Below are positions 1,272 through 63,978 of a stretch of DNA of 64,000 bases, one piece after another. The position numbers were made by a program, and so were the translations under genes. Below the pieces are notes generated by a model. That model was not told the origin of the DNA, made no database searches, and was given only the letters and a program-made list of their open reading frames with translations. The stretch is from the NCBI GenBank assembly GCA_017443765.1, contig JAFSYB010000025.1, positions 1 through 64,000 on the forward strand, read 5' to 3'. This stretch comes from Muribaculaceae bacterium. GTDB taxonomy: Bacteria; Bacteroidota; Bacteroidia; Bacteroidales; Muribaculaceae. The stretch's first letter is position 1; every line of letters starts with the position of its first letter.

Positions 1272-4200
1272 TTACTGCTGCTCGAGCACGAGGTTAATGA
1301 GCATGTTGACGTCGGTGATGTCAACCTCGGTGTCGCCGTTCAGGTCGGCATTTCCCGTCAGGGCGTCGGGCGAGATTTGGTTCAGCACCAGGTTGATAAT
1401 CAGGTTCACATCGGTCACATCGACGGTGCCATCGCCGTTCAGGTCGCCGGGCACTTGCTGGGTGGGGAGCGTGGTGAACTTCACCCATTCGGTCCAGTCG
1501 GTGGTGGTGTTGTCGTCCATGATGCCCTGCACCTGCACCTGATAACCGGTGTCGGGAGCCAGTCCGGTGAGTGTGCGTGGAGCGGTGATGCCCTCGAGGG
1601 TCACCCACTCGCCCGGCATTGACTCGGCGTACTGGATAAAGAAATTGTCGACATTCAGGCGGAACATATCCGTCACATCAAAGTGTCGGATGGCAATGTA
1701 ACCCATTTGTCCGTTGCAGGCGCTCAGGTCGAAGACATACTCGGTGTAAACGTTCTGTGCCTCGGTGGTGTCGGCAAGGACGATGGTGAAGTCCTCAATG
1801 GAGTTGCCCGTGGTGGAGGCATAGATGGCAAAATGCTCGGCGGCCCATTCGGGATCTTGGCTGCGGAGCCACACGCGCAGCTTGCCCTTGAGCTCCACCT
1901 GCGGTGTGATGAGCCAGTTGTCGGGCGTGAGGGCAGAGCCGCTGAAGCTGGCCGAGGTGGCGCAGCGTGCGTCGAACACGGTGGGATTGCCATATTTGTC
2001 CTCTTTTGTACGTCCTTGGACATCGGTGTCCCAGACATACCCGTTGTTGCCATCGCCATCGGCATCGATGGTCGTCCAGTTGTCGGGGATGCCGTTCTCG
2101 AAGTCCTCGAAGAAGCCAATGCGCTCGGCAGCCATTTGGTATCGCAGGTTGTAGCGCTCTTGTGCGCCGGTCCAGGTCACCGTGGCGGTATGGTCGGTGA
2201 TGTCGGTCACGGCCAGCTCGGTGGGCAAGGCATCGGCAGCAGGCGAAGTGAACGTGGCACTGGTCCACAACGAGGTTTCTCCCCCGTCATAGGTACCCTG
2301 CACGTCAACCTCGTATTTTGCCCCGGGCGACAGATTTTCGAGGCGGCAGGAGTTGCCGGTGATGCCGTTGATGGCAACATACTCGCCAAGCTCATGGAAG
2401 TCGCCATAGACGCAAATGTCATCGAAGAGCAAGTAGTCACATTCGTTGCAGTTGTAGTGTCGGAAGGCGATGTACCCCTGCTTGTCGGCATAGGCACTCA
2501 GGTCGGCATAGAGCTCGGTCCATTCCGTGGAGCCCGGCGAGGTGAGGTCGTCGGTGAGCGGCGTGAACGAGTTGATGTCGGTGTCGGTGGTTGACACATA
2601 GATGCGGTAGGTTCCGGTGTATTGGCCATCGTCGCGGATTGCGTACTTGAGCAAACCGCCCAGCGCCACCCTCGGGGTGATGATCCAGTTGTCGGGCGTA
2701 ATAAAGCCACTGACGTAGCCAAGCGATATGAGGGCGTTGTTGCCGTCGTAGGCCGGCATATCCCACTGCGATGCCATATTGATTATAGTCCAGTTATTGC
2801 CGTCGGCGTTGCTGTCGATGACCGTCCAGTCGTCGGGGATTCCTTTCTCGAAGCTCTCTGTCATGTGCACATCGTAGTATGCGGCCTGGCGGTAGCGCAG
2901 GTTATATCCCTTGGCGTTGCCGTTCCAGGAGGCCAAGGCGTTGTGCGCTGTCACATTGGTGACGGCCAGGTCGGCAGGTGCGGGGAATTGGAAAGGCGTG
3001 GTGAAAGTGCAGGCCTCGCTCCACTTGCTCACACCCGCCACGGTTTCGGCGCGCACATAGGCGGTGTAGGTGACGTTTTCGGCCAGATTCGCAATCGTCA
3101 GCGTGGGGTTGCCGGTAACCACCGTTATTGGCAGCGATGGTAGCTCATTGGGTTTGAAAAAGCCCTGACTGTAGGTCACCTGCCAGCGGTTTTGGTTGGT
3201 GTCGCCGGGTGTCCAGGCGAGCGTGGCGCTGTTGTAGGTCAGCTGCGTGGCGGCGAGGCCAGTGGGTTTGGGTGTTACCGAGCGCATCAAGAAGTAGGTG
3301 GTGAGTACGCCATCCGTTGGAGCTGCGCTGTGGTCAGACGTGCTGCCCTGGTGGCTCAAAATCACATCTCCTTCTGGGTCGGTGAGGGTAAAGGTGCACT
3401 CGTAGCCGTAATCGCCGCTCACCCACACAAAGCTGTAGGTTTCGCCGTAGCACAGGCGCAGGGTGCCGGTAGTGGAGGAGCCTGTGAGCAGGGTGAGCGT
3501 GGCCTCCACCTTGCCGTCGCTGTTCACCACCTGAATGGCGTTACCGCTCCAACCGTCGCCGTACTCGTCGATAAGCTCGTAGGTGATTTCGCCCATATCC
3601 TCCTCGTCGCAGTAGAGGGTGGTGAAGCTGGTGGTTGCCCATCCGCTGAGGTTTCCGTCGCCGTAGTCACCTTGCACGCGCACAATGTAGGAGTGTCCGT
3701 TGGTCAAGTCCTCGAGCGTGCACGACGGGGTGTTGACGGTGAGCGTTGTCCACTGATTGTTTTCGGCCGAGGCGTATTCCACGTTCCAGGCGGTTTCGCT
3801 GCCGCCGGGTGTCCAGGTGAGGGTGTCCGCGTTGGGCGTAATGTTGCTCACCGCCAGGTCCGTGGGTTTGCGGTACACCGGCCCGCTGCTGGGCGTGTAG
3901 GTGAACGTGGTCTTGGGAATGAAGTTGCGCTGGTTGACGGACACATCATCTAACGAGGAGCTGTCGTGGCCCTGCACCGAGGCACCCTCCACGGATTCGC
4001 CATAGAAATAGGCACCCTTATAGGAACCTTTCGTGGTGTTATAGATGCCAATGAGCAGGTTTCCCCCCTGGTAGGTGTAGGGCGTGTTGAAATCGACGGT
4101 AATCGTTTCGCCAGTGCCGTCGAGTGCCCCTTCATAGACGATGGTGGCCCCGGTGGTGCCGCTATAAGCGCTCAACGTGGTTGTATAAACCTCCTTGACG

Positions 4201-4476
4201 AACACCTGGAAATTGGCCGTGCCCCCAGCTGCCCGTGGCGGGTGTCTGGAGATACCAGGTCAGGCTGCTGATGGTGCCGCCCTCCATCTGGCTCAGCTCG
4301 GTAGCCGGAACCACATACTCGCACTTCAGGTAATTATCGCAGTTAAACCCATAGATGGGCACTTAACTGCTTTTCCCCTGACCATCGTGCACGGTAAGCG
4401 TGTCCGCGCTGGCCCACAGCGGCAATCCCGCCGTCAAGGCAAGCAGCGCAGTGAGGAATAGTAACTTGTGTTTCAT
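1272..4476 (-). pseudogene. Secreted fibronectin-III/cleaved-adhesin protein with C-terminal dockerin-like pair, N-terminus disrupted
   Basis: A signal peptide begins at the ATG at 4476 (MKHKLLFLTALLALTAG). After 37 codons a TAA (4363-4365) interrupts the frame, and the homologous sequence carries straight on (VPIYGFNCDNYLKC). A +1 shift follows at a five-G tract (plus-strand C run 4222-4226): removing one G joins ...TGSWG to NFQVFVKEVYTTTL. From about 4205 the frame is open for 977 residues, with several FN3 repeats and two cleaved-adhesin/MAM-like domains (ENGIPDNWTTID and NWLITPQVELKG). The C-terminus holds two dockerin-like loops (GDLNGDGTVDVTDVN, ADLNGDTEVDITDVN). As written, the product would be a 37-residue peptide, or a protein without a signal. 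Decay, phase variation and sequence error are all possible. Confidence 0.8.
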
Positions 4477-4543
4477 AATGACTGTTGTTTGGTTGTTGAG
4501 ATTAGTTTTACTCCTATTGGGATTCCCAAGGCTCGGCAGTGGG

Positions 4544-5998: not shown

Positions 5999-6047
5999 AG
6001 GGGGTGGTGGTTGGGGGTGGTGAATAGTGAATTGTGGGTGATGGCCA

Positions 6048-7307: not shown

Positions 7308-7373
7308 AGTGCGTAGTGTGTGGTTCATAGCTCGCGCTGTTCACTCCGGCGAGGGAACGGGGAGCTATGCAAC

Positions 7374-12810: not shown

Positions 12811-14502
12811 TCACATGGCCAGGCGCAAGCCCTGGTCGTGGTGTGAGTAGGTGGGGGCGTTGCTGAATCGTGCCGTCACGCGGCAGTATTGGTCGCCACT
12901 TGTGAACGAGCCACCACGGAACACTTTCGATGTCGGGTCCGCGCCGCCGGTGTAGGGCAAATACCAATCGGCACACCACTCCCACACGTTGCCGCTCATG
13001 TCGTAGAGGCCGAGTGCGTTGGGTTTCAGCGTCCCCACCGCGTGAACCATTGTGGTGACACCTTTGTACCAGCCCACTTGCCCCAGGTTGTTGCTGCCGG
13101 CATACATGAATGCCTCGCCCTGCCCGCCTCCGCGTGCGGCATACTCCCACTCGGCCTCGGTGGGCAGGCGGAAACGTTGCCCGGTGAGGGCATTGAGCTT
13201 GGTGATGAACTCCTGGCAATCGTTCCAGCTCACGCGCTCCACAGGGCGGTTCAAGTCGCCAGTCCATCGGCTCGGGTTGCTACCCATCACCGCCACCCAC
13301 AAGGCCTGGGTGACCTCGGTGGCACCGATTTTGTAGGGCGACAGTGTGACTTCGTGGGCGGGTTTCTCGTTCTCCCAAGCTTTGTCGCCCTGCTCGGCAG
13401 TGGCACCCATGGTGAATGCGCCGCCCTCCACAGCCACCATGTCGAAGGTCACATCACCCACAGTGAAAGTGGACACGCCGCCCATGTCCTTGTGCAGCAT
13501 CACGTTGATAACCAGGTTCACATCGTCGATGTCGACGACACCGTCGTTGTTCACGTCGCCCGATGCCTCGGACTGCGCCATGGCTTGCGCAAGACGAAGT
13601 CCGAGCCCATACCAGCGTTCTGTCTCGTCGCACGAGACACCACCACGCCCCGACGGACGGCATCCCGATTCACGACTGTTGAAGCAACCTCCTTTTCTCA
13701 CAATGAACGAACCCGAAGCGGGTCCTGTGGGATTGGCCAGCGGGTCGGCCGTGTAGTTGCCGTAGTAGTCTTGGCAGTATTCACTTGCATTGCCAGCCAT
13801 GTCGTACAAGCCCAGCTCGTTGGGACGCTTTGTTGCCACGGGTTGCACACCGTCGGAGGTGGCCCCCTCGTAGAGCGCGGGCAGATTGTCGTAATACCAA
13901 GCTACCTCATCAATATTGTCGCTGCCCGGGTACTTGTAGCCCTTGCTCTTGTTCCCTCCGCGTGCGGCGTACTCCCACTCAGCCTCGGTGGGCAGGCGGA
14001 AGTTCTGGCCCGTCATCTGGTTGAGCTTGGCGATGAACGTTTGGCAGTTGTTCCAGCTCACGGCCTCCACCGGCCGCTGGAAGTCGTCGACATAATTGTG
14101 CCGGCTGGAGTAGTGGCTTGGATTCTCGCCCATCACCGCCAGCCACAATGCTTGTGTTACCTCGGTCTCGCCAAGGTAGTAGCTCTTGGTCAGTGTCACC
14201 TGATGCGCAGGTTTCTCCATTGGCATGGCATCGGTGTCATCTTCGGTGGCCCCCATCACGAAAGAACCCGGAGCCACCAAAACCATCTTGAACGACACGT
14301 CGCCCACCTGATGGGTGACAGTTGCGGCAGGGGTGGCTGCGCCGCTCTTGCCCAGCATCACGTTGATGACCAGGTTGAGGTCGTCGATGTCGACCACGCC
14401 GTTGCCGTTGGCATCGCCGCGCACTCCAGTGGCATTTATGGCTCCTGCCGCAAGCAATACACTGGCGACAAGCGGAATTTTTCTGAGAATATTCATAATC
14501 AT
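12811..14502 (-). CDS. Secreted double SUMF1 (FGE-sulfatase-like) protein with two dockerin-like repeats
   Basis: 563 residues from 14502 (MIMN...; the ATG at 14496 is equally possible). A signal peptide is followed by a dockerin-like loop at about 29-50 (GDANGNGVVDIDDLN), a SUMF1 domain, a second loop near 312-337 (GDVNNDGVVDIDDVN) and a second SUMF1 domain. Both SUMF1 copies carry FRLPTEAEWEYAARGG. The formylglycine-generating enzyme site needs two Cys in the GGS-x2-C-x4-C region; here the copies read GGCFNSRESGC and GGSFTSGDQYC, so each lacks the first Cys. A true sulfatase-activating role is therefore unlikely; ligand or matrix binding at the surface is more plausible. No sulfatase gene is in the window. 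Confidence 0.85.
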   Translation of the reverse strand: MIMNILRKIPLVASVLLAAGAINATGVRGDANGNGVVDIDDLNLVINVMLGKSGAATPAATVTHQVGDVSFKMVLVAPGSFVMGATEDDTDAMPMEKPAHQVTLTKSYYLGETEVTQALWLAVMGENPSHYSSRHNYVDDFQRPVEAVSWNNCQTFIAKLNQMTGQNFRLPTEAEWEYAARGGNKSKGYKYPGSDNIDEVAWYYDNLPALYEGATSDGVQPVATKRPNELGLYDMAGNASEYCQDYYGNYTADPLANPTGPASGSFIVRKGGCFNSRESGCRPSGRGGVSCDETERWYGLGLRLAQAMAQSEASGDVNNDGVVDIDDVNLVINVMLHKDMGGVSTFTVGDVTFDMVAVEGGAFTMGATAEQGDKAWENEKPAHEVTLSPYKIGATEVTQALWVAVMGSNPSRWTGDLNRPVERVSWNDCQEFITKLNALTGQRFRLPTEAEWEYAARGGGQGEAFMYAGSNNLGQVGWYKGVTTMVHAVGTLKPNALGLYDMSGNVWEWCADWYLPYTGGADPTSKVFRGGSFTSGDQYCRVTARFSNAPTYSHHDQGLRLAM

Positions 14503-23426: not shown

Positions 23427-26400
23427 TTATGGAATAATAATATTGATTTCTCCGTTGTCGTAAATCGGGCCTTGCATTGCGGGTGCCTGCAATGCCGGTG
23501 CAGCCGATGTGCCGCTGTGATAGGTGCAGCCGGTAAACACCGTTGAGTTGTGCAGATACTCGGCCCACCCCAGTGTGCACAGCCCGGTGTTGTGAGTGGT
23601 ATCGGTGGTTTGCAGGCGCACAATGAAGTCGCCCGACAACGCATTATTGTAGTAATAATTCATGGTGATGACATTAGGTCCATCGGCAGGACGCACAATT
23701 CGCTGGGGCGAGGCTGGCAAGCTGGCCCAGCCATTGCCTTCGCCCAAAGTGCTAACCTGCTGCCAATAGGCACCGCCCACCGTACACACAAACCGGAACG
23801 AGGACTTATATTTATAAATCTGCCCATTGTAGGTGACATCCTGCGTTGTGCCGGAGAAAGTGACATCGTTGAGCTCCAGCGAAATGTTGTCGGGGTAAGC
23901 CAGCGCAAATTCCTGCCATTCGCCAGTCACAGTCTCGTGTGTGGTTTTGTAAGTAGCGTAGGCGCAAATTTTCAATGTGTGGCTCGGCACATCGGCAACG
24001 ATGGGAATCGTGACGGCAGCGGTGGCGGGCTTGCCGTTGCAAGAATACTGCACCTGTGTGACCCCGTCAGCCCCAACATAAATGACCCCCCAAGCCTCCA
24101 CCTTGTCGGGGTCGGGAATCGAAGGCGTGGCCTGCACCCAGTATTTGCAGGTGTGCTTCACCCCGTTGAACTCATAGGCGTCGGGGTGGTTGAGCGGCAG
24201 GTAACTCGCCTTACTTACCGTGGCGGTTTTCACGCTCACGCCGCCCGGCACGGTGAACGTGTAGTCGCACGTGGTGGCTTCCTGTTCCCATTCTTTTCCA
24301 AACAAACTGGCCATTACTGTGGGCCGGCAGGTATAGGTGGTCCCTGGCGTGAGTGAGCTAATAGGCATTTGGAGTTGGTTGAGGTTCCACGATTTCTCCC
24401 ACCAGTACTTGTTGGTTGAGAGTACATGGCGTATTTCGTTGTTTTGCGAATCATATAGTTTCATGCCCAGTTTCATGGGGATTGGGCAGTTGTGCTCCGG
24501 CTTCATCAGCAGGATGTTGGGGTCATCAGGATTTGGATAGGGCGTGGTGAGGCCAGGAAAAGCGTAGAATGTGCATAAGTCGGCCTCGGCCAAGGGGAAC
24601 GTGGAAGAGGCTGTGAGCAGGTCAAGGTCGAAGATTGTGGCTTTCGTCTTGAGGTCGGCATACCATTTTAAGCCCACACTAACATCTTTCAAAGCCTCGA
24701 ACCAGCGCCATTGTCCACTTTGCAGCAAGTCATCGAGGGTGACACCGGCCTGGCCTGAGAGTTTAAGCCCCGTTTCCAGATTAACCGATGCGCTCACTTT
24801 TTCGCTGAACAACTGAAGCACGGGCTTCACATAGAAACCAGCCTTGATAGAGCCTTTCAGATAGATTCCCAGATGCGGCTTCCCCTGGTCAATGACTTCG
24901 CTATAGCATTGTTTGAGGTCGGGTGTCACCATGGGCAAAGATGTCAACGCAGTTGCCGTTAATCCGCCTGCCGAGAACGAGATGCGCTGGTGGACCTTCA
25001 TCTCGCGCACACCGCCCTCAAGGCTGAACTCGCCTTCGGGCTTGCCGATGTAGGGGCCGAATTTGATAACAACAATTCCGGGCACAACGTCATATCTCCA
25101 TTTGGGGTCAAGCCAGTGTTCGTCTTCTTTTTTCTGCTCATTATTGAGGAAATCCACGATTTGCTTCTCGTTTTCCGCTATGTTTGAGCCGAGCGTGAAA
25201 GACCATTCAATGTCGTTATGCTGCAGGAACACATCGGCATGCGCATTATAGGTGAAAGGGTCGATACGAACCCACCAAGCCACGGTTACTTTGGGTTTTT
25301 TAGAAGTGATTTCAAACACATTGCCCACCTCAAGTGGGAGGATGGGAATTTGGAAATAGAATGGCTCACCTTGGTAGCCATCGGTCATGAACGACCACAC
25401 ATCGTTTAGCACCGAACGTCGGCGGTCGATGCGCCCAGGAGCCAGTTGCGGGGCATTGGCATCGTCGGTGGTCTCGGACCTGCCAGCAATCAGAATCTGC
25501 TTGAACACATCTCCCACCCTGGCCTCGGAGCAAGAAACAAGCACGTTGCCGCCAGGCAGCGTAGCCAGTGTGTCAACGACACCACTAAAGCCAAGCTCAA
25601 GGGGCGACTGGTGCACATCGGAAATAACCGTTTGGCCAATTGCGGGAAGCATGGTTGTCGGGGTGTTGGCCAGGAAAACCAGCGTGCTGTCGGTGCTTGC
25701 GACTATCCAGGGCAAATGGGCGGCAGTGATGTGATAAAGATCGTCGCGCAATTCAGGCCGAGGCGCTTGGAAAGTCAAGGAGTCGATTCCCGCAAGGGGG
25801 ATGCGGTAAACATTGTCGGTAGTCCACACTTCTTGAACAATGGCATTGTCGTACCACAAGCTATCGGTACCCAAAGTGCTGAACTGGATACTGTCGATGT
25901 CTTGATGCACAAAAGCATTGAAATCGCCGTCGTTCCGATAAACGAAGATGGCATAAGGATTTGCGTTGTCGGCCTTTGTTTCAGCAGTTTTCCGTGCCAA
26001 TTTCTGCAAGTGGCTCTCGTTGGCAAAATAGACGCGATAGAGTTTTTCCATAGAGTGATGCCACGTCTCATAGCGAGAACGAACCACCAAGTTGCCACGG
26101 TCAAATTTGATGACCGGCTGGTCGGCCAGTGGCGTGACTGTGCGCGTGCCGTCGCGAAGCTCGACAACCAATGTGAGGGGTTGAACATGATGCAAGTCCT
26201 TGCGCATCATGTGGTTGATGACGGCATTCAGGTCGTCAACGTCAATAACGCTGTCGCGGTTGCAGTCGGCATGGTTCCACGCCCTGCCTGTGAGCTCTTG
26301 CTTATGAACCATCTGGTTGATGATTGAGTTCACATCGTCAATGTCAACAACGCGGTCGTCGTTCACATCTCCGGGCATATACGGATTGTAGGGGGCTTGC

Positions 26401-35360: not shown

Positions 35361-37309
35361 ATGGCCGCTCGCGATGAGTTCACCGCCGATGAGCTCGACG
35401 AGCTGTTCGAGCTGCGCAACACGCCCGCGGCACACTACATCTTGATGAACGACATCGACCTGACGGAGTTCATTCAAGATGAGAACCCCACGATGGGTTG
35501 GACGCCCATCCCCGACTTCAGCGGCGAACTTGACGGCAACGGCATGACACTCAGCGGCCTGTTCATCAACCGCTCCAGCCAGAGCGGTGTGGGTCTGTTC
35601 TCGAGCCTGAGCGGCAGCACCGCCACGGTGCACGACCTGATTATCGACGCGCCGCGCATCACCGGCGGCAACTACACCGCTGTGATTGCCGGGCAAGGCA
35701 CGGGCATCTTCTACAACATCACCGTCAACGAACCGGTGATGACAGGTGCTTCTTATTCTGGAATCGTGACAGGTGACGGCGGAGGAAACATTCATGATGC
35801 AACCATCACCTCTCCAAGGGTTTCATCTGCAAGCAACCGCATCGGCATAATCACAGGAGAGGTGAGTAAAGAGAATACGGAAATCTACAACATCACCATT
35901 ACCAACGCCCAAGTGGCAGGCGGTACATACGTGGGTGGCATTGTTGGTGGCATGGGGAATGTTACGGAAACGTCTGGTTCTTTCTATGTAACAAGCCGCA
36001 CTATCAGCAAGAACCATTACTGTGGCACGATTCAGTCTGCGAGCAGCTACGCGGGGGCATCGTGGGCTATGAGCGCAATTACATGACAGGTAATGGTAGT
36101 TTCAACACCATCAACAACAATATCATCGAAGGACGGATCCTGAGCAGAGGCAGCAGTGTTGGAGGCGTTTTGGGATACCGGGACACCAGAGACTACAACG
36201 GCGAAACCACCACCTCGTACACCTATATGTCGAATAATGTGTGCGTGATGGACACGATTACCGGTTCTAACAGCAGCACGCTCCGGCGCATTCAGAACAA
36301 CGTCGCAAGCAGCACCCACGTGGGTAACAACTACGCCCTGGCCACGCTGGCGCTGATGGTCGGCGACCAGCAGGTGGCGGTGACAGCCGACGACATCTAC
36401 AACGGCATCAGCTACGGCGGCCGCACACTGAAGCGCGCCTCGACGTGGCAGGGCATCGGCTACGACAACTCGTGGACGATTGTCGACGGGCAGTACCCCT
36501 GGCTGTCGATGCAGTGCGCCCCGCCGGTGGTGACCTCGGCCACGGGCGGCACGGTTGCCAGCACCGCCGAGGGCAACGGCTCGGTGTATGTGCTGGTGGG
36601 CGAGAAGCTGTACACCGGCACGGTGAGCGGCGGCACGTGGAGCGTGGCCGTCGACGCGCTGTCGGCTGGCGATGAGGTGCGCGTGAGCGTGGAAACGGGC
36701 GGCAAGATGCCGTCGGTGCTCGTGAACGCGTCGGCCAGCGAGGATGGTGGCGATGAGCCGGGCCCGGGCGGCGACGACCCGCAGCCAAGCGACAACGAGG
36801 TGGTGCTGAAGGTTACCGCGCCCTACAGCACGTTCACCCCGGCCAAGGGCGTGACGCTGCGCGGCGTGGAGGGTGTGAAAGCCTACGCCGCCACGGCCTA
36901 CAGCGAGGGCAAGGTGACGCTCACCGAGGTGCAGGAGATTGCCGCCGGGCAAGGCGTGCTTGTGGTGGCCCTGCCGGGCACCTATCTGCTGCCCACCGCC
37001 AATGTGAGTACCTGCCAAAGCACCTATCTGGTGGGGTGCGTGTCGACGACCACGGTGAGCCGCTGCACTTCGGCCTACAGCAACCTGGTGCTTATCGAGG
37101 GCAATGCCGACACGGCACGGTTTGCCAGCGTGACCACCTCGACCACGGTGCCCGCCGGCAAGGCCTACCTGAGGCTGCCGCTCGCCGGAGTGGCCTCCGG
37201 CTCGTTTGCACTGCAGTTCAAGGTGGACAACGCCGGCGACATCAACGGCGACGGCACCATCGACGTGATTGACGTGAACGCAATCATCAACCTGATCCTG
37301 GGGCACTAA
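35361..37309 (+). pseudogene. GLUG-motif/adhesin-like surface protein, truncated and frameshifted, with C-terminal dockerin-like loop
   Basis: The first open part (from 35361) lacks a signal peptide and starts inside a domain (FTADELDELFELRNTPAAHY). It holds GLUG-like repeats (GELDGNGMTLSGLFIN, GGTYVGGIVGGMGN). At a G5 tract (36053-36057) the frame shifts: one more G would turn SSYAGAS into SSYAGGIVGYERNY, which is the second open part (36062 on). That part continues with repeats, a Gly/Asp/Pro linker, a beta-domain (FTPAKGVTLRGVEGVKAYAA) and a dockerin-like loop GDINGDGTIDVIDVN at the very end. Missing start plus shift make this a remnant or a phase-off allele of an adhesin. Confidence 0.75.
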
Positions 37310-38947: not shown

Positions 38948-40750
38948 TCACTGGTTGAGTATGATGTTGATCAGTGCGTTGATGTCGGTGATGGACACGC
39001 TGTCGGCGCCGGTGATGAGGGCTCGGCCGTCGTAGTTGGCGGCATCGTCCATGTCGAGGATAATGTTGATCAAGATGTTCAGGTCGTCGATGCCTACATC
39101 GCCGTCGCCGTTGACATCGCCGGGCAGGGAGTCGGCGGGGTAGCCCTTGCAATACCACAGCGTGGCCACGCCGTCGTCGGCGAGGCAGATTTCGGTAATG
39201 GGCTTGTCTACCACTCCGGCGCCGCCAGAGTAGGCAGCGAGGGTGCCATCGGCCCTCATATTGGCCGTCATGGACGGCGTGGAGGAGGCGGTGAGGCTTT
39301 GGTTCTTGGGGCCGTAGGTGTCGTCCGACACATTGTAGGAGTTTAGCATGGCGTCGGCGGGGACAAGGGTGGCCAGCTGCACCGTAGAGTCGTTGACCGT
39401 GTTTCCGGCCCACCTGTCGGGGAGGTAGGTGAAGTGGGTGATGAGGACGCCGTCGGCGGGAATGTAAAGGTCCCACCCCTGGCGGCGGCGGTTCTCGAGC
39501 ATATAGAACTCATTCTCGTTCATCGCTGTGACTTTCAGGGCGACATCGTTGTCGGGGTTTAGGCTGTTGAACACGGGCAGGGTGTACTGGGTGTCGTTAC
39601 GTGGCGTGATGGGTGTGATCCAGCCCATAGCCATCTTCTCGTAGGCGCTGTAGCCAATGGGGGTGTCGCCATCGATGTCGCCGCCATTGTAGCAGCCCTT
39701 GTCCATCAGGCTCCACACATTCATGCCAAAGTAGCCGTGCTTATAGGTGGTTTCGTAGAAGTCGGGCAAGCCCATGCAATGCGAGAACTCGTGGCAGAAT
39801 GTGCCGATGCCGTCGAGCACGGTGCTGTAGTCATTGTCGCCGCCAATCTCGTTGAAGACGGCAAACTTGTCGATAATCACGCCATTGCGGTCAACGGGGC
39901 CGATGCCGTCGTTATACTCTTTCGCATTGGTGAAATCCCATTGGCAGGGCCACACGGTGTTGCTGATGTGGGACTGCGCCTCGCCCACACCGGCATAGAC
40001 CACGATGCAGACATCGGCCTGCCCGTCGCCATCGTTGTCGTACTGGCTCCAGTCGATGTCGTCGCCGGCCTTGTCGATGGCTTCCTGCGTCATGCGCGCC
40101 ACACCGGCATCGAGCCCTCGCACATTGCGTCCGTAGGTGTAGCGTGTACCCGACAGGTCGTAGATGCCGTAGAGGTCGAACTGTGGGGTGTACTGGCCGT
40201 TGCTCTGGTCGGTGAAGTATTGCAGCACGCTCTTGGGGTTGGTCTTGTATTGCGCCTCGAAATCGGCCAGGGTGTTCGACATCTTCTTGTCGGAGTACTG
40301 AACGAGTAGTATGGGCACCCTCGGCGAACCGGTGGTGGGCACCTGAGTGAATTGCAGCTGGTTGTCTTCGGCACGATGCTGCCCCGCGGCCTTTGGGCCG
40401 CGCATTGCGCCGGAGCGTTGCGCGTGCTCAACGAGGGCTTGTATGGTGAAGCGGCCGGCGTTCAGGTTGAGGAACTCAAGCTCGTGGGCCGTGCGGTGTG
40501 CCGCGTCGTGGGCGCGCACCGCAGTGATGCCTGTGGCCGAGTGGTAGTAGTAGTCGCCATCGTCGGCCTGGGCGATGGTCAGGCCATCGGCCGTGGCAAG
40601 GCTGTGGCAGCGCTCATCGCCGAGCTGTTGCACCTGCAAGGAGGTGCCGTCGCTCTGCACTACGGTGAACAGCCCGGGCTTTGCCGGGATAGCGTGCGCG
40701 GCGGCCGCCGCCAGCAGCGCCACCGCAAATAGTAGTTGGATTTTCTTCAT
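38948..40750 (-). CDS. M6-family metalloprotease with C-terminal dockerin-like pair
   Basis: 600 residues with a signal peptide. An N-terminal propeptide-like region (FTVVQSDGTSLQVQQLGDE) precedes the M6 catalytic domain: VPILLVQYSDKKM, YDNDGDGQADVCIVVYAG and the zinc site FCHEFSHCMGLPDFYE, with an extended HExxHxxGxxD. The C-terminus has two dockerin-like loops, GDVNGDGDVGIDDLN and a degenerate second one (ITGADSVSITDIN). It is probably a secreted protease acting on host or dietary protein or on surface proteins. M6 members include immune inhibitor A. Confidence 0.9.
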   Translation of the reverse strand: MKKIQLLFAVALLAAAAAHAIPAKPGLFTVVQSDGTSLQVQQLGDERCHSLATADGLTIAQADDGDYYYHSATGITAVRAHDAAHRTAHELEFLNLNAGRFTIQALVEHAQRSGAMRGPKAAGQHRAEDNQLQFTQVPTTGSPRVPILLVQYSDKKMSNTLADFEAQYKTNPKSVLQYFTDQSNGQYTPQFDLYGIYDLSGTRYTYGRNVRGLDAGVARMTQEAIDKAGDDIDWSQYDNDGDGQADVCIVVYAGVGEAQSHISNTVWPCQWDFTNAKEYNDGIGPVDRNGVIIDKFAVFNEIGGDNDYSTVLDGIGTFCHEFSHCMGLPDFYETTYKHGYFGMNVWSLMDKGCYNGGDIDGDTPIGYSAYEKMAMGWITPITPRNDTQYTLPVFNSLNPDNDVALKVTAMNENEFYMLENRRRQGWDLYIPADGVLITHFTYLPDRWAGNTVNDSTVQLATLVPADAMLNSYNVSDDTYGPKNQSLTASSTPSMTANMRADGTLAAYSGGAGVVDKPITEICLADDGVATLWYCKGYPADSLPGDVNGDGDVGIDDLNILINIILDMDDAANYDGRALITGADSVSITDINALINIILNQ

Positions 40751-47554: not shown

Positions 47555-49708
47555 TCACTGCGCAAGAATGATGTTGATTACCTGGTTTACATCGTCGATG
47601 TCCACACGTCCGCTGCTGTCCACATCGGCGCGGCCATCGTACTCGTCTGCCGTGGCGAGCTGGAGGATGATGTTGACCAAGATGTTCATGTCGTCGATGT
47701 CAACGCGTCCGTTACCGTCCACGTCGCCCTTGATGGCGGGAGCGTCCTTGACCTTTGTTACCGTGAACTGGTGCAGGAGCAGTGCGCCGTATCGCGGCAC
47801 CGAGATGTCGTGGAAGCCGAAGTAGTACACGCCGGTGGCAGCAGGCACGATGTCGTTGACGGTGTAGGTGTCGGTCACCGGCGTGGCGATGGTGAGCTGG
47901 TTCATCACACGGTCGTAGCCTTCGGGGCGCAGTCCCTGCCCATAGGCAAGCTCGAGATAGCTGACGTTGGCACCGGTGTAGGTGTTGGCGTCGAAGGTGA
48001 CGCGGTAGGTGGCCCCTCGCTCCAGGCTGATGGGCGGCGAGAGCAGCCAGTCGTCGTTGGCAAGAGCCTCGAGGTCGCTGTTCGAGCCGCAGTAGGCGCG
48101 TCCGCCCCCGCTGCTGCCGTAGTTCTTGTCCCATTGCCAGGAGATGCCGTCCTCGTTGCGGTCGAGCACGGTGAGCAGGTCGAAGCTGGCATCGGTGGCA
48201 AACCGCTGCGTGTAGGGCACGTTTAGCGCGGGTCCCACCACGGCGCGGTTCGACACGGCAGGCTCGCCAGCCACGCCGGCATTGAGCGGCTCCACCTTGA
48301 AGTAGTAAGCGGCCAGCGTTTCGGGGTCAAAGCTCAGCTCCACACGGTTGCCGGCCAGCTGTGCAGCAGCCAGCGTGTCGGCGGGCATCAGGTAGATGTT
48401 ATAGGCAAGGTCATCGTCGTTCAGCTCCGCGCCGTGCTCGCCGGCAGTGGGAGCCAGCCACGAGAGCACGGCCAGCTTTTCGCTGGGGTTGTAGTCGAAC
48501 ACCACATCGGTGGGAGCCAGCGGCCTGTCGGAGCCGACAAATGTGGTGAGTTTGGCCACGGGGCTCACGCCGTCCTGATTGCTCACGGTGACGATAAAGG
48601 TGACATCGCCAGGCTCGACGGTTACCTGCGCCGTAGCCGTGGCTCCGGGTTCGACGGAGCCCGTGGCCACCTCGGTGCCGTTGGCCTCAACCATATAGGC
48701 AAGCGTGCCGGTGAGCGGGTCGCCGGTGTAGGTGGTGGTGGGAGCGGTGAAGGTTATGGTGCCCATGGTAGCCGCGCCCACGAAATCGGCGGCCAGGTTG
48801 GTGACGGCGGCGGGAGCGTCCTCGGCAGCCTCGGGGTCGGGAATGTAGAGGTTCACGAGCCAGGCGTTGTCGGGCGACTGCATGAGCAAGGAGGCCGACA
48901 CCGCGCCGAGCGTGGGGTCTACTTCATAGAGGCAGCACTTGCCGTTGTTGAGCACCACACTCCAGAGGAAGTTTCCCGTGCGGCTATTGTAGGTCATCGA
49001 GCTGGGGTTGGTCGAGATGTTGTCGATGCCCAGGTCGCCCAGTGGCAGCACCTCCACCTCGCTCTCGGTGGTTGCATCGGTGTCGATTACATACAGGTAG
49101 CCATCTTGCCCCACGCCGTAGAGCAGTCCGTTATCGGCAAAGGCAATGGCGGCCATCGGCGTGGACAGCGTGCCGATGATTTGGCGCGTGGGCACATCGG
49201 TGGTGAAGTCGATGGTGGCCAGCTTGCGGTTGAGCACCTGCCAACTCATGTTGAAGTTGTAGAAGATGCCATAATTCTCGCCGGTGAGGGGGGTCTTGGC
49301 GAGTCCGCAACTGGAGATGTAGTTGCGGTCCATGTCGCCGAGCGTGACGGCGCGGGTGCGCGTCCACGTTTCCATGTCGTACTCCACATGATAGAGGATG
49401 TAGCTGCTGGTTTGGTCGAAGTCGTCCCACACGGTGCGGAAGTGGACACCTTTCATCTTACCGTCCTCGTAGACGGCTCCTCCCAGCGGGGCTTGGTACA
49501 CGTCCTTGTCCTGGGTGAGCTTGGTGAGGCTGCCGTCGTCGAGCACCAGCTCGTAGATGCCCTCCCGGGTGTTGTTCGACAGCCAAGAGTCGGCTTTCAC
49601 CACGCCGCAAATCACTTTGGTTTTATAGGGAGCCCGCTGCTGTGCAGTGGCTGTGAGGGTGACCAAGGTCATCAGCAGACACAAGGCCGGGATAATATAC
49701 TTTTTCAT
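47555..49708 (-). CDS. Large secreted protein with FN3-like domains and C-terminal dockerin-like pair
   Basis: 717 residues with a signal peptide (MKKYIIPALCLLMTLVTLTA). The N-terminal 280 residues have beta-propeller-like repeats (NGLLYGVGQDGYLYVID, TGNFLWSVVLNNGKC). Two FN3-like domains (about 290-490) follow, then a cleaved-adhesin/choice-of-anchor-J-type domain (LANDDWLLSPPISLERG). Two dockerin-like loops end the protein: GDVDGNGRVDIDDMN and ADVDSSGRVDIDDVN. It is probably a surface-exposed, glycan- or matrix-binding protein. It is in tandem with the 986-residue protein at 49781, 72 bp away. Confidence 0.82.
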   Translation of the reverse strand: MKKYIIPALCLLMTLVTLTATAQQRAPYKTKVICGVVKADSWLSNNTREGIYELVLDDGSLTKLTQDKDVYQAPLGGAVYEDGKMKGVHFRTVWDDFDQTSSYILYHVEYDMETWTRTRAVTLGDMDRNYISSCGLAKTPLTGENYGIFYNFNMSWQVLNRKLATIDFTTDVPTRQIIGTLSTPMAAIAFADNGLLYGVGQDGYLYVIDTDATTESEVEVLPLGDLGIDNISTNPSSMTYNSRTGNFLWSVVLNNGKCCLYEVDPTLGAVSASLLMQSPDNAWLVNLYIPDPEAAEDAPAAVTNLAADFVGAATMGTITFTAPTTTYTGDPLTGTLAYMVEANGTEVATGSVEPGATATAQVTVEPGDVTFIVTVSNQDGVSPVAKLTTFVGSDRPLAPTDVVFDYNPSEKLAVLSWLAPTAGEHGAELNDDDLAYNIYLMPADTLAAAQLAGNRVELSFDPETLAAYYFKVEPLNAGVAGEPAVSNRAVVGPALNVPYTQRFATDASFDLLTVLDRNEDGISWQWDKNYGSSGGGRAYCGSNSDLEALANDDWLLSPPISLERGATYRVTFDANTYTGANVSYLELAYGQGLRPEGYDRVMNQLTIATPVTDTYTVNDIVPAATGVYYFGFHDISVPRYGALLLHQFTVTKVKDAPAIKGDVDGNGRVDIDDMNILVNIILQLATADEYDGRADVDSSGRVDIDDVNQVINIILAQ

Positions 49709-49780: not shown

Positions 49781-52741
49781 CTATTGAAGAATGATATTAA
49801 TCAGTGCGTTCACGTCGGCGATGTCGGTGGTGCCGTCGCCATCAATGTCGGTGGTGCCCATGAGCGTGTCGACCGAGGTGAGTTCCAGAATCACGTTGAT
49901 GAGCGCGTTCACGTCCTCGATGTCCACGTTGCCATCGCCGGTCACGTCGCCCACGGCAGTGTCGCGGTTCAGATAGATGTCCAGGGCCACATTGCCCACG
50001 GTGATGTCGACCTCGGTGGTGAACGGCTTGTAGCCGGCGGCTGTGGCGGTGAGCGTGTAGCCGGTGAGGAAGTCTTTCTTCACCTCGATGGTGTAGGAGC
50101 CATCGTCCTGAGTGGTGGCGGCATATTGCACCTCGCCGCTGCACACGCGCACATCGGCGCCGGCAATGGCGGCTTCCGTGGCGGCATCGGTGACGGTGCC
50201 GCTCACCGTTGTGGCCTCCTTCACCGTCGAGAGGTACATCACGGGCACCTCGCAGTCGCGGTAGTAGCTGAACACATCATTGTAGCTCGACTGCTGCACG
50301 GCCACGCCGGCGTTGTCGTCATACTGGTATCGCACCGTGCATGAGCGGGTGCGCTGCGAGTGGAAGCGCAGGCGCAGGTTGGCGCCATCGTAAACAAACG
50401 GCTCGGCCAGCTCAATGACCAGCATATCGGCATGAGTGGGGTTCATGCCAGCCGAGCCACCGGGCAGGAAGGTGTACTCCCGGTCCATGACCAGGGTCAT
50501 GTCGTCGGTGGGGTGAATGGCGTTGTTGTCGACCTCGCTGTCGGTGGTGTTCTCAATCCAGGCTTGGATGTTTGCCGCACCGCTGCTGCCGGTGTTTCGT
50601 CCCTTGAAGGCAATGCGGGTAATTTTGGCCCCCTTGGCGAGCTGGATTTGGCTTGCGGGATAGATGATTTCCGACACCTGGTACATCTCTGACGGGTCAA
50701 CAGGCGCGCCGCCGGTGATGGTGCTGGTGGTTGTAGCGTCGCCCACGGCAATGTCGCTCGACACCACCTCGTCGAGAATGGTGACGGTGGCCTCGCTGGT
50801 GGCCAGCTCATAGTCGCCAATGGTGATTTTCGCCACGATGGGGAAGGAGCCTGCCTGATGCGGCGTGAAGGCGAAGTCGAAAGTGGTGGCAGCCCCGGCG
50901 GCCATCTCCACGGCATCGGCAGTGGCCACGGGTTGTCCGTCGACCAGCAGCGTGGCCGTATAGGTGCCGGCAGCCTCGGTAGGGCCGTAGTTCTTCACCG
51001 TGAGCTGGGCGGTGAGCGGGCTGTTCACCTCGCCCTGAGCGGGCAGGCTCTCGCTGGTGACCATCAGGTCGTGCTCCACGGGCACCACAGCGAAACCGCG
51101 CACATTGTCGAGTGCCACTCCAAAACCCTCGAACATCACATAGCCCACGGCGGGCTCAAAGGTGTCGATGGTCATGTCGGTGTAACGGCACTCGCCGTTA
51201 TAGCCAATGGTGGTGCGGTCGAAATCGCCGCTCACATAGTCCTTGACCAGTGTCCAGTGCTTGCGGTCGGTAGAGAAATAGATGTTCAGGTCGGGCACAT
51301 AGTAGCTGCTCTTGGCCATTTGGAAGTGCAGTGCCTCGCCCGCCTTGATTTCGAGCTTGGGCGAAATCAGATAGCGTCCCTCGCCCTCGTATTGTGTTCC
51401 TTGCCAAGTCTGAGCCACGGCAGCCTGCGAGCCGCCATAGCTCTGTGCGCGCCAGATGGCCCCGGGTATCATGTTGGCGGGGAAACCGTCCTCGAAATCG
51501 ACAAACCACTGCGAATCGTCGATTACCGTTCCGGTGAGGGTGAGGCGGAACTCGTCGACGGTGTTGCCACGCAGCACCAAGTCGCCCTCGTGGAGCCCCG
51601 GCGTGCTGTTATCCATGGCGATGACCACGATGGCGGCCTCGTGCGCCGGCACGGTGTCGCCCGCCTGGGTGAGGGTGACGAAGCCGTCGGGGCATGTGAA
51701 CTCGCTAATCACAAACGGAGCCGCCCCGGTGTTGTTGATATAGAACTCCCGGGTGACAATGTCCTGCGTTTGGCCGAAGTCGAGCGTTGCCCCGGTGGGC
51801 AGGTCCACATAGCGGCCGTTCTCCTGTTGGAGCATTTGGATGCGCGGCTCATATTTGTTGGAAATCACCTTGATGTAATCGCTGTGGTGCGTGCCGCTCA
51901 CGTTCTCCTGCACATAGAACGTCTGCAAGTCGGCGTACTGGTTGCCATCAACGTTGAACACGATGGTCATCTCGCCTGTCTCGGTGGCTCGCGGCAGGTC
52001 GCTGCCAATGGCCTGGGTGTCCACCACCGTTCCACCGGTGGTAATCAGGCTCAGCGAGAAGTCGGGGTCGCCAGCCATCAGGTCCACATTGCCCACGTTG
52101 CGGAGCGTGACGTTGACGGGCACGGCGTAGGTGTTGCCCTCGGCCATGTCAAGCTCCTCGGGACCCATATACTGCATCTCGGTGATTGTCAACAAGCGTC
52201 GGTCCACCTTCTCCACCTCGGCAGTGGTGGCGGTGAAATTGGCAATCAGCACGTAGGAGCAGGCAATGCCGATATAGCTGCCCTGTGGCACATCGGCCAG
52301 GGTGAGTGTGGTGAAAGCCTCCAGGTTCAGTGCGTCGAGGTTTTGCACATCGGTGATGGCCGCCCCCTGCGAAAAGGTGCCATCCTCGTTCTTGGTGCAA
52401 TAGAAGAATTTGAGCCAGGGCTGTCCGAACTGTGCCTCGGCATACATGGCCTGCAAGGTCACTGTTCCTCCCACGGCGGGGGTGACAAACATATTGTAGG
52501 TTGGGAAGTCGCTGGTTTGGTAGTCGATGTAGAGGCAGGAGCCCACGCCCTCGACGTTTTCCAACAGTTCGTACACTTGCTTGCCTTCAACAATGTGTCC
52601 CCAGCCATCGGGGGCGCAGTCGGGCTGGGTGTAATCCACCCCGGCAAAGTTCTCGTTGTAGGGCGAAACGGTGACGGCCCGCGCCACCTGCCACCCCAAT
52701 GCCACAACAAGCACCGGGAGCAACAGCTTAATGGTTCTCAT
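49781..52741 (-). CDS. Large secreted protein with adhesin, CARDB-like and carboxypeptidase-regulatory domains and a dockerin-like pair
   Basis: 986 residues with a signal peptide. Order of parts: N-terminal choice-of-anchor-like region; a CARDB-type beta domain (VPVNVTLRNVGNVDLMAGD); a DUF1573/abnormal-spindle-like segment (ITREFYINNTGAAPFVIS is the nearest match region); a cleaved-adhesin domain (DFEDGFPANMIPGAIWRA); another CARDB-like domain (QLTVKNYGPTEAAGTYT); and a carboxypeptidase-regulatory-like domain (VSGTVTDAATEAAIAGADV). Two dockerin-like loops close it (GDVTGDGNVDIEDVN, TDIDGDGTTDIADVN). It is probably anchored or assembled on the cell surface. The function is unknown. Confidence 0.82.
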   Translation of the reverse strand: MRTIKLLLPVLVVALGWQVARAVTVSPYNENFAGVDYTQPDCAPDGWGHIVEGKQVYELLENVEGVGSCLYIDYQTSDFPTYNMFVTPAVGGTVTLQAMYAEAQFGQPWLKFFYCTKNEDGTFSQGAAITDVQNLDALNLEAFTTLTLADVPQGSYIGIACSYVLIANFTATTAEVEKVDRRLLTITEMQYMGPEELDMAEGNTYAVPVNVTLRNVGNVDLMAGDPDFSLSLITTGGTVVDTQAIGSDLPRATETGEMTIVFNVDGNQYADLQTFYVQENVSGTHHSDYIKVISNKYEPRIQMLQQENGRYVDLPTGATLDFGQTQDIVTREFYINNTGAAPFVISEFTCPDGFVTLTQAGDTVPAHEAAIVVIAMDNSTPGLHEGDLVLRGNTVDEFRLTLTGTVIDDSQWFVDFEDGFPANMIPGAIWRAQSYGGSQAAVAQTWQGTQYEGEGRYLISPKLEIKAGEALHFQMAKSSYYVPDLNIYFSTDRKHWTLVKDYVSGDFDRTTIGYNGECRYTDMTIDTFEPAVGYVMFEGFGVALDNVRGFAVVPVEHDLMVTSESLPAQGEVNSPLTAQLTVKNYGPTEAAGTYTATLLVDGQPVATADAVEMAAGAATTFDFAFTPHQAGSFPIVAKITIGDYELATSEATVTILDEVVSSDIAVGDATTTSTITGGAPVDPSEMYQVSEIIYPASQIQLAKGAKITRIAFKGRNTGSSGAANIQAWIENTTDSEVDNNAIHPTDDMTLVMDREYTFLPGGSAGMNPTHADMLVIELAEPFVYDGANLRLRFHSQRTRSCTVRYQYDDNAGVAVQQSSYNDVFSYYRDCEVPVMYLSTVKEATTVSGTVTDAATEAAIAGADVRVCSGEVQYAATTQDDGSYTIEVKKDFLTGYTLTATAAGYKPFTTEVDITVGNVALDIYLNRDTAVGDVTGDGNVDIEDVNALINVILELTSVDTLMGTTDIDGDGTTDIADVNALINIILQ

Positions 52742-56921: not shown

Positions 56922-56930
56922 GCCCCCGAT

Positions 56931-57905: not shown

Positions 57906-58094
57906 CATACTCAATGGCACTTCGGGTGGGTTCCGCAAATTGCTGATTTATATTAGCTTGTGGCAAGAGATGCTCAACAAGCGGCCTCAAGCAATTTATG
58001 GAATCCACATCGCCAATATTGATGCCCGATAAAAAGCCCTTCAGCACCGGCAAGGTCATAGGGTGGGTGTGCAGCTGCCCACCGCGCAATAACG

Positions 58095-59972: not shown

Positions 59973-60045
59973 AGATAATTGAAAATGCAAATATACGCAT
60001 TTTTTCGCTCAATGAGCGTTTCTTCAGTAAAAAAACGGTGTTGCA

Positions 60046-60077
60046 GTTGGCACAGCCGTGGATTATTGCTAAATTTG
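60046..60077 (+). promoter_or_regulatory. Promoter of the gmd-fcl operon
   Basis: GTTG (60046-60049), 20-bp spacer, TAAATTTG (60070-60077), 23 bp before the ATG of gmd. Confidence 0.6.
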
Positions 60078-60100
60078 CACTTTCAATCAAAACTGAACCA

Positions 60101-61165: not shown

Positions 61166-61198
61166 GGCCAATGTTAACTGATTAATTAAGTTAAGCCA

Positions 61199-62266: not shown

Positions 62267-62346
62267 GTTGTGCGAATTGCGAGAAAAGCCATATTGCCAC
62301 GGCAATCCCGCTTATCCAAATCATGAGAAACAGCCATGCCTGAACC

Positions 62347-63978
62347 TCATTCGCCAAACAAGCGGCTGGGGGCGTCAGTGTTGTGAGGCGTGGCGACGCA
62401 GGCCGAGTCGATGACGGCGGTGCGCACCTTGAAGAAGTTCCATTGCGGGTCATCGTCGAGTAGGCGGTATCGCGGCTGGTTGCCGAGTTTGCTGGGCTGG
62501 TCGGCCAGCACGTTGTCGCGGTCCACATCGCTGGGCACGTGGGCGGCGATGAGTGCGTGCCAGGCCTGGATGCGGCTCACAGCCGACTGGTAGTCCATGA
62601 GTCCCTGCCGCTCATCCACCAGCTCGCGCAGGCATTGCACATAGAGCTGCCTGTAGGCCTCGATGCGCAGCACGCGGGCAATGAGCGGGTTGCGTTCGTC
62701 GCGGCCCCAGTGCAGTGGGTCGTGACGGCCGCTGTCGGCAATGGCGTGCACCTTGCGCGACGAGCCCAGCGTGTTGTCGAGGTCGTAGGGAATGAAAAAC
62801 ACGCGGTAGTGCTCGGGGTCGGTGCTGTTGAAGTAGAGGTAATAGTTGTTGCTGTTGTTCCAGTAGTCGTCCCAGTTTCCCACGGCTACCACGGTGGCGT
62901 AGGTGCGCACAAGCAGCGTCACATCGCACACCGTGGCCAGCCAGCGTGCGAAAGCCTCGTCGTTGAGCATGGTAAGGCTGTCGCTGAAAGCCTGCAGCTG
63001 CGTCCGTGCGGATTTCAGCTCGCCGGTGCGCGTCTTGAGCACATAGGCGGCCTCGTCGGTGTCGGTGCCGAAAGTGGCCGCCTCGAGGCCTGTGAGCGAG
63101 GCCACGCCCTGGCCGCACTTCCACAGATAACCGCCAGTGTCACCGAAGCGGTCCGCACGGTCGGCCAAGTAACGCTCGTCGATGGGTTCGAGCAGGGTAT
63201 ACACCCCATAGTAAGCCTCGCGGTCGTCGCCTTGCACGTGTACCCACAGGCGGCAGTAGGTGTCGCGTGGAGCCGTCCACACGCCAAATTGCTCGAGCAG
63301 GCGGTAGCAGAACAGCTCGCGCACGCAGGTGGGGTCGTGGTAGAAGTAGCGCAGGTGTACCTTGCGCACGCCACGCAGTGTGTGGGTGCTGTCCTTGTGA
63401 AATTTGCGCAGGTTCAGCCCGAAACCCGTTGGGTGCCACACGGTGGCGCCGGCGGTGTGGACCTGGCCAGTGTTTCCCTCGGGGCGTCGGCGCGAGCCGT
63501 TGCCTCGCAGCCGCAGCCCGGCATCGGGCACGTGTGTCTCGCCATCGCCGGTCACAAAGCGCACATTGGCGTGGACGTATTCCTTGGTGAGCCGGTCGGC
63601 ATCGTAGAGGGTGAGCAGGCGGTTCCACTCGTCGAGCGGCACGTCCAGGTGCACCTCGGGCAATGCATCATAATGCCATACGTAGTCGCAGCCCGTGCGT
63701 TCCTCGTGCCAGCAGTGGGTGAGCATTGCGCTCAGCACAGCGTTGAGGTCGTCAACGTCCACCGTGCCGCTGGCGTCCACATCGGCCCAGATAGCGACAT
63801 CGGGCTGACGCTGCTTGTGCACGATGACGTTGATAACCGCGTTCACATCGTCGATGTCCACCACCCCATCGCCGGTCACATCCTCCAGCACGCGCACAGC
63901 AGCCCCCACCGGCAGTGCCGCAAATGCAAGGGCAGCCCCAGCGAGCAAGTAATGACGAATAGAACGCTTCATGCTCAT
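62347..63978 (-). CDS. CotH-kinase-family secreted protein with N-terminal dockerin-like pair
   Basis: 543 residues from the ATG at 63978 (63972 also possible). A signal peptide is followed at once by two dockerin-like loops at about 32-53 (EDVTGDGVVDIDDVN) and 65-86 (ADVDASGTVDVDDLN). The rest is a CotH domain: RLRGNGSRRRPEGNTG, FGLNLRKFHKDSTHTLRG, VGNWDDYWNNSNNYYLYFN and FFIPYDLDNTLGSS. CotH proteins are atypical kinases in spore formers and fungi; the role in Bacteroidetes is unknown. The position of the loops (N-terminal) matches the 23427 and 12811 genes. Confidence 0.9.
   Translation of the reverse strand: MSMKRSIRHYLLAGAALAFAALPVGAAVRVLEDVTGDGVVDIDDVNAVINVIVHKQRQPDVAIWADVDASGTVDVDDLNAVLSAMLTHCWHEERTGCDYVWHYDALPEVHLDVPLDEWNRLLTLYDADRLTKEYVHANVRFVTGDGETHVPDAGLRLRGNGSRRRPEGNTGQVHTAGATVWHPTGFGLNLRKFHKDSTHTLRGVRKVHLRYFYHDPTCVRELFCYRLLEQFGVWTAPRDTYCRLWVHVQGDDREAYYGVYTLLEPIDERYLADRADRFGDTGGYLWKCGQGVASLTGLEAATFGTDTDEAAYVLKTRTGELKSARTQLQAFSDSLTMLNDEAFARWLATVCDVTLLVRTYATVVAVGNWDDYWNNSNNYYLYFNSTDPEHYRVFFIPYDLDNTLGSSRKVHAIADSGRHDPLHWGRDERNPLIARVLRIEAYRQLYVQCLRELVDERQGLMDYQSAVSRIQAWHALIAAHVPSDVDRDNVLADQPSKLGNQPRYRLLDDDPQWNFFKVRTAVIDSACVATPHNTDAPSRLFGE

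Follow-up and report, generated by a model that had tools for sequence, protein, structure and literature searches.

The DNA analysed here, referred to below as the window, is a stretch of 64,000 nucleotides from a Muribaculaceae bacterium (phylum Bacteroidota; GenBank assembly GCA_017443765.1, contig JAFSYB010000025.1), in which eight reading frames carry type I dockerin loops. Our analyses make it probable that these genes are clients of a calcium-dependent cohesin–dockerin display system, some of the carriers of which are exported and anchored by the type IX secretion system (T9SS). The clients probably belong to a protein-display system because the same genome also encodes likely matching cohesins, missed by standard annotation, and at least one of these sits on a protein with a surface-anchoring tail. 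The computed basis of this reading comprises the identity of the dockerins, the export signals of most clients, the cohesin fold of a relative's domain, the co-occurrence and adjacency of the two domains, the tail of the main carrier and the T9SS components of the genome.

Dockerins in the window and across the genome

The original prediction, made from the letters of the window, had pointed to dockerin-like loops at eight loci, and these were recovered in full. A dockerin profile built from the genome itself matches all eight frames (E-values from 1e-6 to 6e-21); as it includes most of the window modules, its matches there are partly circular. Independently, the Pfam family Dockerin_1 (PF00404) matches seven of the eight loci (E-values from 2.4e-11 to 2.5e-4), with scores of 23.3 to 45.7 bits against a cut-off of 22.9, and only the module in the frame starting at 38948 is found by the genome-built profile alone. 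The eight frames hold nine modules, one protein with SUMF1 domains containing two separate single loops. A structural model of the module at 1284..1451 has a helix after each loop (residues 18-28 and 51-63), and its top Foldseek rows are dockerins; the match to 6kgf_D (CaDoc0917) has TM scores of 0.80/0.84 and an E-value of 1.4e-3, with none below 1e-3.

The whole genome (G000 in our numbering, the window's contig being C124) amounts to 3.07 Mb in 140 contigs and is 100% complete by a tool's estimate. We found at least 127 dockerin matches in it at E-values up to 1e-3, 124 of them above the Pfam cut-off. These are minimum figures, 150 of the 230 candidates having been scored. The number is beyond chance, given that 0-2 dockerins are the rule in other families of the order (23 of the 24 genomes searched). 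Of the 127 modules, 108 contain a pair of calcium-type D-x-[DN]-x-[DN] loops and the other 19 a single one. The commonest residues in both repeats read D-x-N-G-D-G-x-V-D-[VI]-[DE]-D-[VL]-N-x-[IV]-I-N, and at position 11 an acidic residue (D or E) occurs in 91 and 76 of the 108 two-loop modules. The dockerin ends within 20 amino acids of the stop codon in 100 proteins, starts within 45 amino acids of the chosen start in 17, is internal in nine and is cut in one.

A genome-wide collection of this kind had been proposed along with the prediction, together with a scan for loops on cytoplasmic proteins, and the scan came out in favour of secretion: a signal-peptide rule of our own making (a charged start and a hydrophobic stretch, where the start could be any methionine up to residue 120) is passed by 107 of the 127 dockerin proteins, as opposed to nine of 31 further frames of the window, not all of them necessarily genes. 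Among the 20 dockerin proteins failing the rule, five are truncated at the edge of a contig, and several seem to have signal peptides that the rule misses. The cargo is diverse (Pfam matches at E-values up to 1e-5, as listed for the 25 most frequent families out of 39 and out of 30): BspA-type leucine-rich repeats (LRR) occur in 28 of the 127 proteins, SUMF1 in 15, M6 peptidase in eight, CotH and Big_2 in seven each, and C10 peptidase in five. Glycosidases are few (alpha-amylase three, GHL10 two, GH53 one and GH16 one), and none of the classical cellulase families is among the families listed for these clients.

A divergent cohesin family outside the window

The absence of cohesins from the window, also part of the original prediction, stands, as a cohesin profile finds nothing there. 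The rest of the genome gives a different picture. The Pfam cohesin family PF00963 points to a single place below its threshold (21.5 bits against 24.1), namely the N-terminus of a 2728-aa protein. Iteration from this domain, together with another spotted by eye in a dockerin protein, gave a profile (A1, eight rows) that finds 13 places at E-values up to 1e-3, and 16 at E-values up to 0.1. When 42 diverse members of the family were compared with Pfam, PF00963 was the commonest match (15 of the 42 at E-values up to 1, best 5.6e-7), the next family matching two of the 42. A profile of the 42 members had cellulosomal cohesins as its four best matches in the Protein Data Bank (PDB), albeit with weak E-values of 7e-4 to 0.016.

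After these weak profile matches, the assignment was decided by the predicted fold. We modelled the cohesin domain of the nearest named relative of the window genome's carrier, a protein 58% identical in the best segment and encoded by a goat-rumen metagenome-assembled genome (MAG) labelled Muribaculaceae (L182). The model has a pLDDT of 95, and all 50 rows listed by Foldseek, of 93 at E-values up to 1e-3, are cohesins (best E-value 1.1e-9). It aligns with CaCohA2 over 135 residues (Z 17.3, rmsd 1.8), and its identity to the solved cohesins among the matches listed is 8-20%. Note that one and the same crystal complex unites 6kgf_C, the best PDB match of the cohesin model, with its partner 6kgf_D, which is the best match of the window dockerin model. 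Judging from homology, fold and gene association, the window dockerins would bind the cohesins of this genome in a calcium-dependent manner.

Co-occurrence and adjacency of the two domains

A search for cohesin-like partners co-occurring with the dockerins across genomes, likewise suggested with the prediction, was rewarding. Both domains are present in all 37 genomes of the genus that were searched, i.e. the window's own and 36 of 36 congeners, with 29-89 dockerins (about 87 candidates being scored per genome) and 1-15 cohesins each. Outside the genus, the search covered the 24 genomes representing other families of the order. One of them, f4, has 38 dockerins and 24 cohesins, the other 23 being those with 0-2 dockerins; f22 combines three cohesins with one dockerin, and the remaining 22 lack cohesins. 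In a scan of 395 genomes of the phylum, cohesins were found in 13 (E-values up to 1e-6) and dockerins in 136. Twelve of the 13 cohesin genomes have dockerins; with the window's genome set aside, the proportion is 11 of 12, compared with 124 of 382 cohesin-free genomes (Fisher p=5e-5).

The genes themselves lie together as well. In eight of the 12 cohesin-bearing genomes a dockerin gene abuts a cohesin gene on the same strand or precedes it by at most about 140 bases. A rough estimate of the chance of eight such cases in 12 within 10 kb, with dockerins placed randomly and G354 given one dockerin, is 6e-14. Two more genomes (G064 and G437) have both domains in one frame, the case of G437 resting on the phylum scans, though our own dockerin profile did not show it. 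A dockerin/cohesin gene pair is also found in the window's genome.

Cohesin carriers and type IX secretion

The 2728-aa protein of the window's genome begins with a cohesin and ends with a T9SS tail scoring 34.4 bits against TIGR04183 (cut-off 23), so it passes as a T9SS substrate. Directly upstream is the gene for a 1489-aa protein that combines a dockerin and two cohesins with a tail close to the cut-off. Elsewhere in the genome, a 1560-aa cohesin–dockerin–cohesin protein is followed by a 238-aa protein composed of signal peptide, cohesin and dockerin (an adaptor), two LRR–dockerin–cohesin proteins are encoded beside a 190-aa cohesin protein, and three more proteins (804, 621 and 415 aa) combine a cohesin with a downstream dockerin; no protein has more than two cohesins. 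Congeners possess the same adaptor pair and proteins with two or three cohesins and partial dockerins (L146, L173, L174), and three of them (L165-L167) encode proteins of 918-921 aa with six tandem cohesins and a dockerin, which are multi-cohesin scaffoldins. Family f4 contributes a protein with five cohesins and a T9SS tail (L168). The T9SS cut-off is exceeded by all seven cohesin proteins scanned from other genomes, which had been picked because a tail could be seen in them; f4 supplied two and the eight abutting pairs supplied five. The tail of another (L213) is cut by the contig.

Further relatives of the giant carrier emerged from a contig scan, for which an alignment of the small adaptor cohesins proved too variable while the 2728-aa carrier together with a homologue worked. 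Among the phylum genomes with cohesins, G266 and G345 encode cohesin proteins of 2764 and 2780 aa that resemble the 2728-aa carrier in size and layout and have the same upstream dockerin gene. At five loci from ruminant MAGs (labelled Prevotella in L192 and L195, Prevotellaceae in L193, Bacteroidaceae in L194 and Bacteroidales in L203) a homologous carrier of 1303-1323 aa has a dockerin at its end instead of the T9SS tail. At these same loci the dockerin-ended carrier adjoins a cohesin protein of 399-410 aa. A relative with 29% identity occurs on a contig labelled Verrucomicrobia (L185), owing to either transfer or mis-binning.

The machinery for reading such tails is at hand, as the window's genome encodes SprA, PorV and three tandem PorU sortases. 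The three PorU genes lie outside the window (G000:C81:1316-12256), 1.6 kb upstream of a cohesin cluster. Each of the 37 genus genomes has 2-6 PorU matches, compared with 0-4 in the 24 other-family genomes (counts that contig breaks may inflate), and two PorU copies are also found in families without these cohesins. In at least seven of the 37 (G000, G001, G009, G021, G022, G026 and G029), the distance between a cohesin gene and a PorU gene is about 10 kb or less. We considered such linkage as a general rule and abandoned it, the two being 56 kb apart in G024 and on separate contigs in G013. The presence of T9SS as the cause of the dockerin number was likewise rejected, SprA being found in 57 of 61 genomes.

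A possible mechanism and its alternatives

On the basis of the signals present, namely signal peptides in the clients and the T9SS tail in the main carrier, export of the former by Sec and export and anchoring of the latter by T9SS can be deduced. The clients, each with a type I dockerin that usually occupies the last 60 residues, would thus be exported by Sec, and their receptors would be the divergent cohesins encoded elsewhere in the genome of this Bacteroidales genus with rumen members. As carriers we envisage the 2728-aa T9SS-tailed protein, the cohesin–dockerin–cohesin proteins with weaker T9SS-like tails, and the small adaptor. By means of the T9SS and its sortase PorU, carriers would be attached to the outer face of the outer membrane. 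Calcium-dependent docking would then retain the clients at this site, which they presumably reach by crossing the outer membrane. The docking or anchoring of diverse secreted cargo envisaged in the original prediction is thereby supported, whereas its remark that the receptor is unknown no longer applies at the computational level. A bolder and rather doubtful extension is that the cohesin–dockerin handshake combined with T9SS, in the form of the gene pair, is an old trait of several families of Bacteroidota, that in this gut genus the dockerin multiplied to become an all-purpose tag, and that tail-less clients ride on T9SS-tailed carriers, perhaps docking in the periplasm. If true, such piggyback export would be a protein-sorting route, the clients being exported as well as displayed on their carriers; to our knowledge, sorting by riding on cohesin carriers has not been described.

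Several observations weigh against the display system as we see it. Its cohesins are about 13, set against the at least 127 dockerins, and none in the window's genome exceeds the Pfam cut-off. Eight of the 13 places found are the rows of profile A1 itself and three of the remaining five are partial matches; the eight-member profile has no match in PDB, the weaker matches of the 42-member profile (E-values from 0.26 up) include unrelated proteins, and the modelled cohesin comes from the relative, not from the window's genome. The anchoring tails are likewise uneven: the tail of the 1489-aa protein reaches 29.0 bits in one scan and 22.2 against the cut-off of 23 in another, that of a 687-aa cohesin protein scores 13.9 bits and falls below it, the 1560-aa protein and a 697-aa cohesin protein show no TIGR04183 tail, and no such tail is visible by eye in a three-cohesin protein of another genome (L212). 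Genome-wide, T9SS tails exceed the cut-off at 11 places compared with 127 dockerins, most clients being without one. As for the association of the two domains, the genus counts as one lineage, with f4 and 12 other genomes providing independent support; the phylum-wide counts come from scans scoring at most 10 and at most 16 candidates per genome, G138 and G157 show neither adjacency nor a shared frame, and the abutting dockerin of G354 is weak (13 bits, and none in the phylum scan).

The dockerin might itself direct sorting in place of the T9SS tail, its reader being the export machinery or a sortase and not cohesins on the surface. The 100 C-terminal dockerins sit exactly where T9SS tails sit, the giant-carrier homologues of L192-L195, L203 and L205 end in a dockerin where the window genome's own carrier ends in a T9SS tail, and the multiple PorU copies of the genus, three of them just upstream of the genome's own cohesin cluster, would fit as well. 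We nevertheless deem this improbable, as 17 of the 127 dockerins lie near the N-terminus and others are internal ahead of a tail, SprA is nearly ubiquitous in genomes with many dockerins or not, and large dockerin numbers track cohesins rather than T9SS. The shortage of cohesins relative to dockerins, along with a cargo rich in BspA-type repeats and Ig-like domains, could alternatively mean that the dockerins are calcium-stabilized end caps or bind something other than cohesin (a glycan, lipopolysaccharide or an outer-membrane receptor), the cohesin-fold domains then being unrelated adhesive spacers. Neither the gene adjacency in eight of 12 distant genomes nor the co-occurrence of the domains and the tandem cohesin arrays ending in a dockerin would be expected in such a case, which we therefore regard as quite improbable. 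That the genes build a conventional cellulosome for plant cell walls appears extremely unlikely to us: the scaffoldin architecture of congeners is suggestive, and many named carrier relatives come from the rumen or other ruminant stomachs (though others are from horse faeces, lakes and sediments), but the cargo is mainly BspA LRR, SUMF1, M6, CotH and C10 proteins, with few glycosidases and no classical cellulase among the families listed.

Comparison with known systems

Both folds and the two-loop type I dockerin are like those of the cellulosomal pairs of Clostridia (e.g. CaCohA2–CaDoc0917 of Clostridium acetobutylicum, PDB 6kgf), and the tandem-cohesin scaffoldins with a terminal dockerin known from clostridial cellulosomes are matched in the congeners; the display system proposed here differs in its Bacteroidota host, the T9SS tails on some carriers and the mostly non-cellulase cargo. 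A surface-attached cohesin scaffoldin has been proposed for Candidatus Stygibacter (Cloacimonadota) (PMC8542988). It shares with our system the C-terminal dockerins on signal-peptide proteins including peptidases, and a tandem-cohesin scaffoldin with a C-terminal surface-attachment domain, whereas it belongs to another phylum and has one 3,755-aa scaffoldin with CBM2/CBM3 (PMC8542988). Peculiar to the present case, in comparison, are the divergent cohesins, the very large client set and the dockerin/cohesin gene pair in several families of Bacteroidota. Ruminococcus albus, too, has many dockerins and few cohesins, interpreted as a means of anchoring single proteins to the surface and not of building a cellulosome (PMC6118326); it is a member of Bacillota, and the carriers here are of the T9SS type.

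In Prevotella and other rumen Bacteroidetes, dockerins have been noted together with few or no Pfam cohesins, their role in that gene context being described as not yet defined (PMC7480376, PMC6071333). The examples include camel bins 49 and 58, with 11 dockerins and no cohesin, and a few Bacteroidetes bins with cohesins, among them bin 136 (five dockerins, one cohesin and tandem domains) and bin 129 (two cohesins). Cohesins in the phylum are thus not wholly new, since the camel study reported some; what is added here is the divergent cohesin family, its carriers and their genomic association with dockerins. The lack of both cohesins and dockerins was taken as typical of the phylum in one study (PMC5831590), and in passages of a 2024 genome survey of cellulosome producers (PMC11557425) the term 'Bacteroid-' occurs only in reference titles. 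Bensoussan 2017 is said (PMC5742341) to describe a distinct cow-rumen cohesin group, and the novelty of our sequence family is uncertain because that group may overlap with it. Searches of a limited literature library turned up no description of this cohesin family, or of the gene pair, in Bacteroidota.

A cohesin family mostly below the Pfam cut-off would give the dockerins of rumen Bacteroidetes a candidate partner and link them to type IX secretion. It would also predict which proteins this gut genus displays on its surface, and the divergent cohesin–dockerin pairs might serve as tools.

Individual genes of the window

The window modules are listed in table 1. Their placement agrees largely with the original prediction, behind the signal peptide in the frames starting at 12811, 23427 and 62347, and at the C-terminus in those starting at 1272, 38948, 47555 and 49781. 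The exception is the locus at 35361, where the module does lie at the end but frame 35361-36086 itself has no dockerin; a half dockerin closes the next, overlapping frame 36062-37309, an overlap suggesting a gene split by a frame change. The GLUG-type assignment of 35361-37309 is a label of the first reading of the sequence, and the domain scan gave no Pfam match there. In the protein of frame 12811-14502, the predicted loop behind the signal peptide was found, and a further one between the SUMF1 domains can be added; this secreted protein has a single dockerin loop ahead of each of its two SUMF1 domains.

Table 1. Dockerin modules of the window, with positions counted from its first nucleotide.
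Feature	Position	Strand	Evidence
Two-loop type I dockerin, C-terminal, FN3/cleaved-adhesin protein (frame 1272-4205)	1284..1451	-	PF00404 45.7 bits, E 2.4e-11; modelled dockerin fold
Single dockerin loop right behind signal peptide, double-SUMF1 protein (frame 12811-14502)	14314..14418	-	genome-built profile E 7e-11
Second single dockerin loop, between both SUMF1 domains (frame 12811-14502)	13441..13560	-	PF00404 23.8 bits; genome-built profile E 5e-10
Two-loop dockerin, N-terminal, behind signal peptide (frame 23427-26477, 1016 aa)	26208..26375	-	PF00404 E 4.6e-7
Half dockerin ending frame 36062-37309, which apparently continues the protein starting at 35361	37235..37303	+	PF00404 E 1e-5; genome-built profile
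C-terminal dockerin with degenerate second loop, M6 peptidase (frame 38948-40750; Peptidase_M6)	38957..39121	-	genome-built profile E 5e-15
C-terminal dockerin (frame 47555-49708, 717 aa)	47564..47731	-	PF00404 E 1.5e-6
C-terminal dockerin (frame 49781-52741, 986 aa; CARDB and carboxypeptidase-regulatory domains)	49787..49951	-	PF00404 E 2.9e-8
N-terminal dockerin, CotH protein (frame 62347-63987)	63736..63885	-	PF00404 E 2.5e-4

Secretion of all eight proteins, as originally predicted, needs one qualification. The frame starting at 1272 lacks a signal peptide; further upstream, around position 4476, one is recognizable by eye, lying in a different frame and followed by a stop, which suggests that the gene is interrupted or mis-assembled. 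The FN3/adhesin gene at 1272-4500 is either a pseudogene or an assembly error.

Ten neighbouring frames of the window, including those for a glycosyltransferase, a glycogen debranching enzyme, a UDP-sugar dehydrogenase, a radical SAM protein and a GH20 hexosaminidase, were scanned and none of them has a dockerin match; a scan of the window for tRNA genes found none. Just past the end of the window (G000:C124:66585-66752) lies another dockerin gene, encoding a GHL10-type glycosidase.

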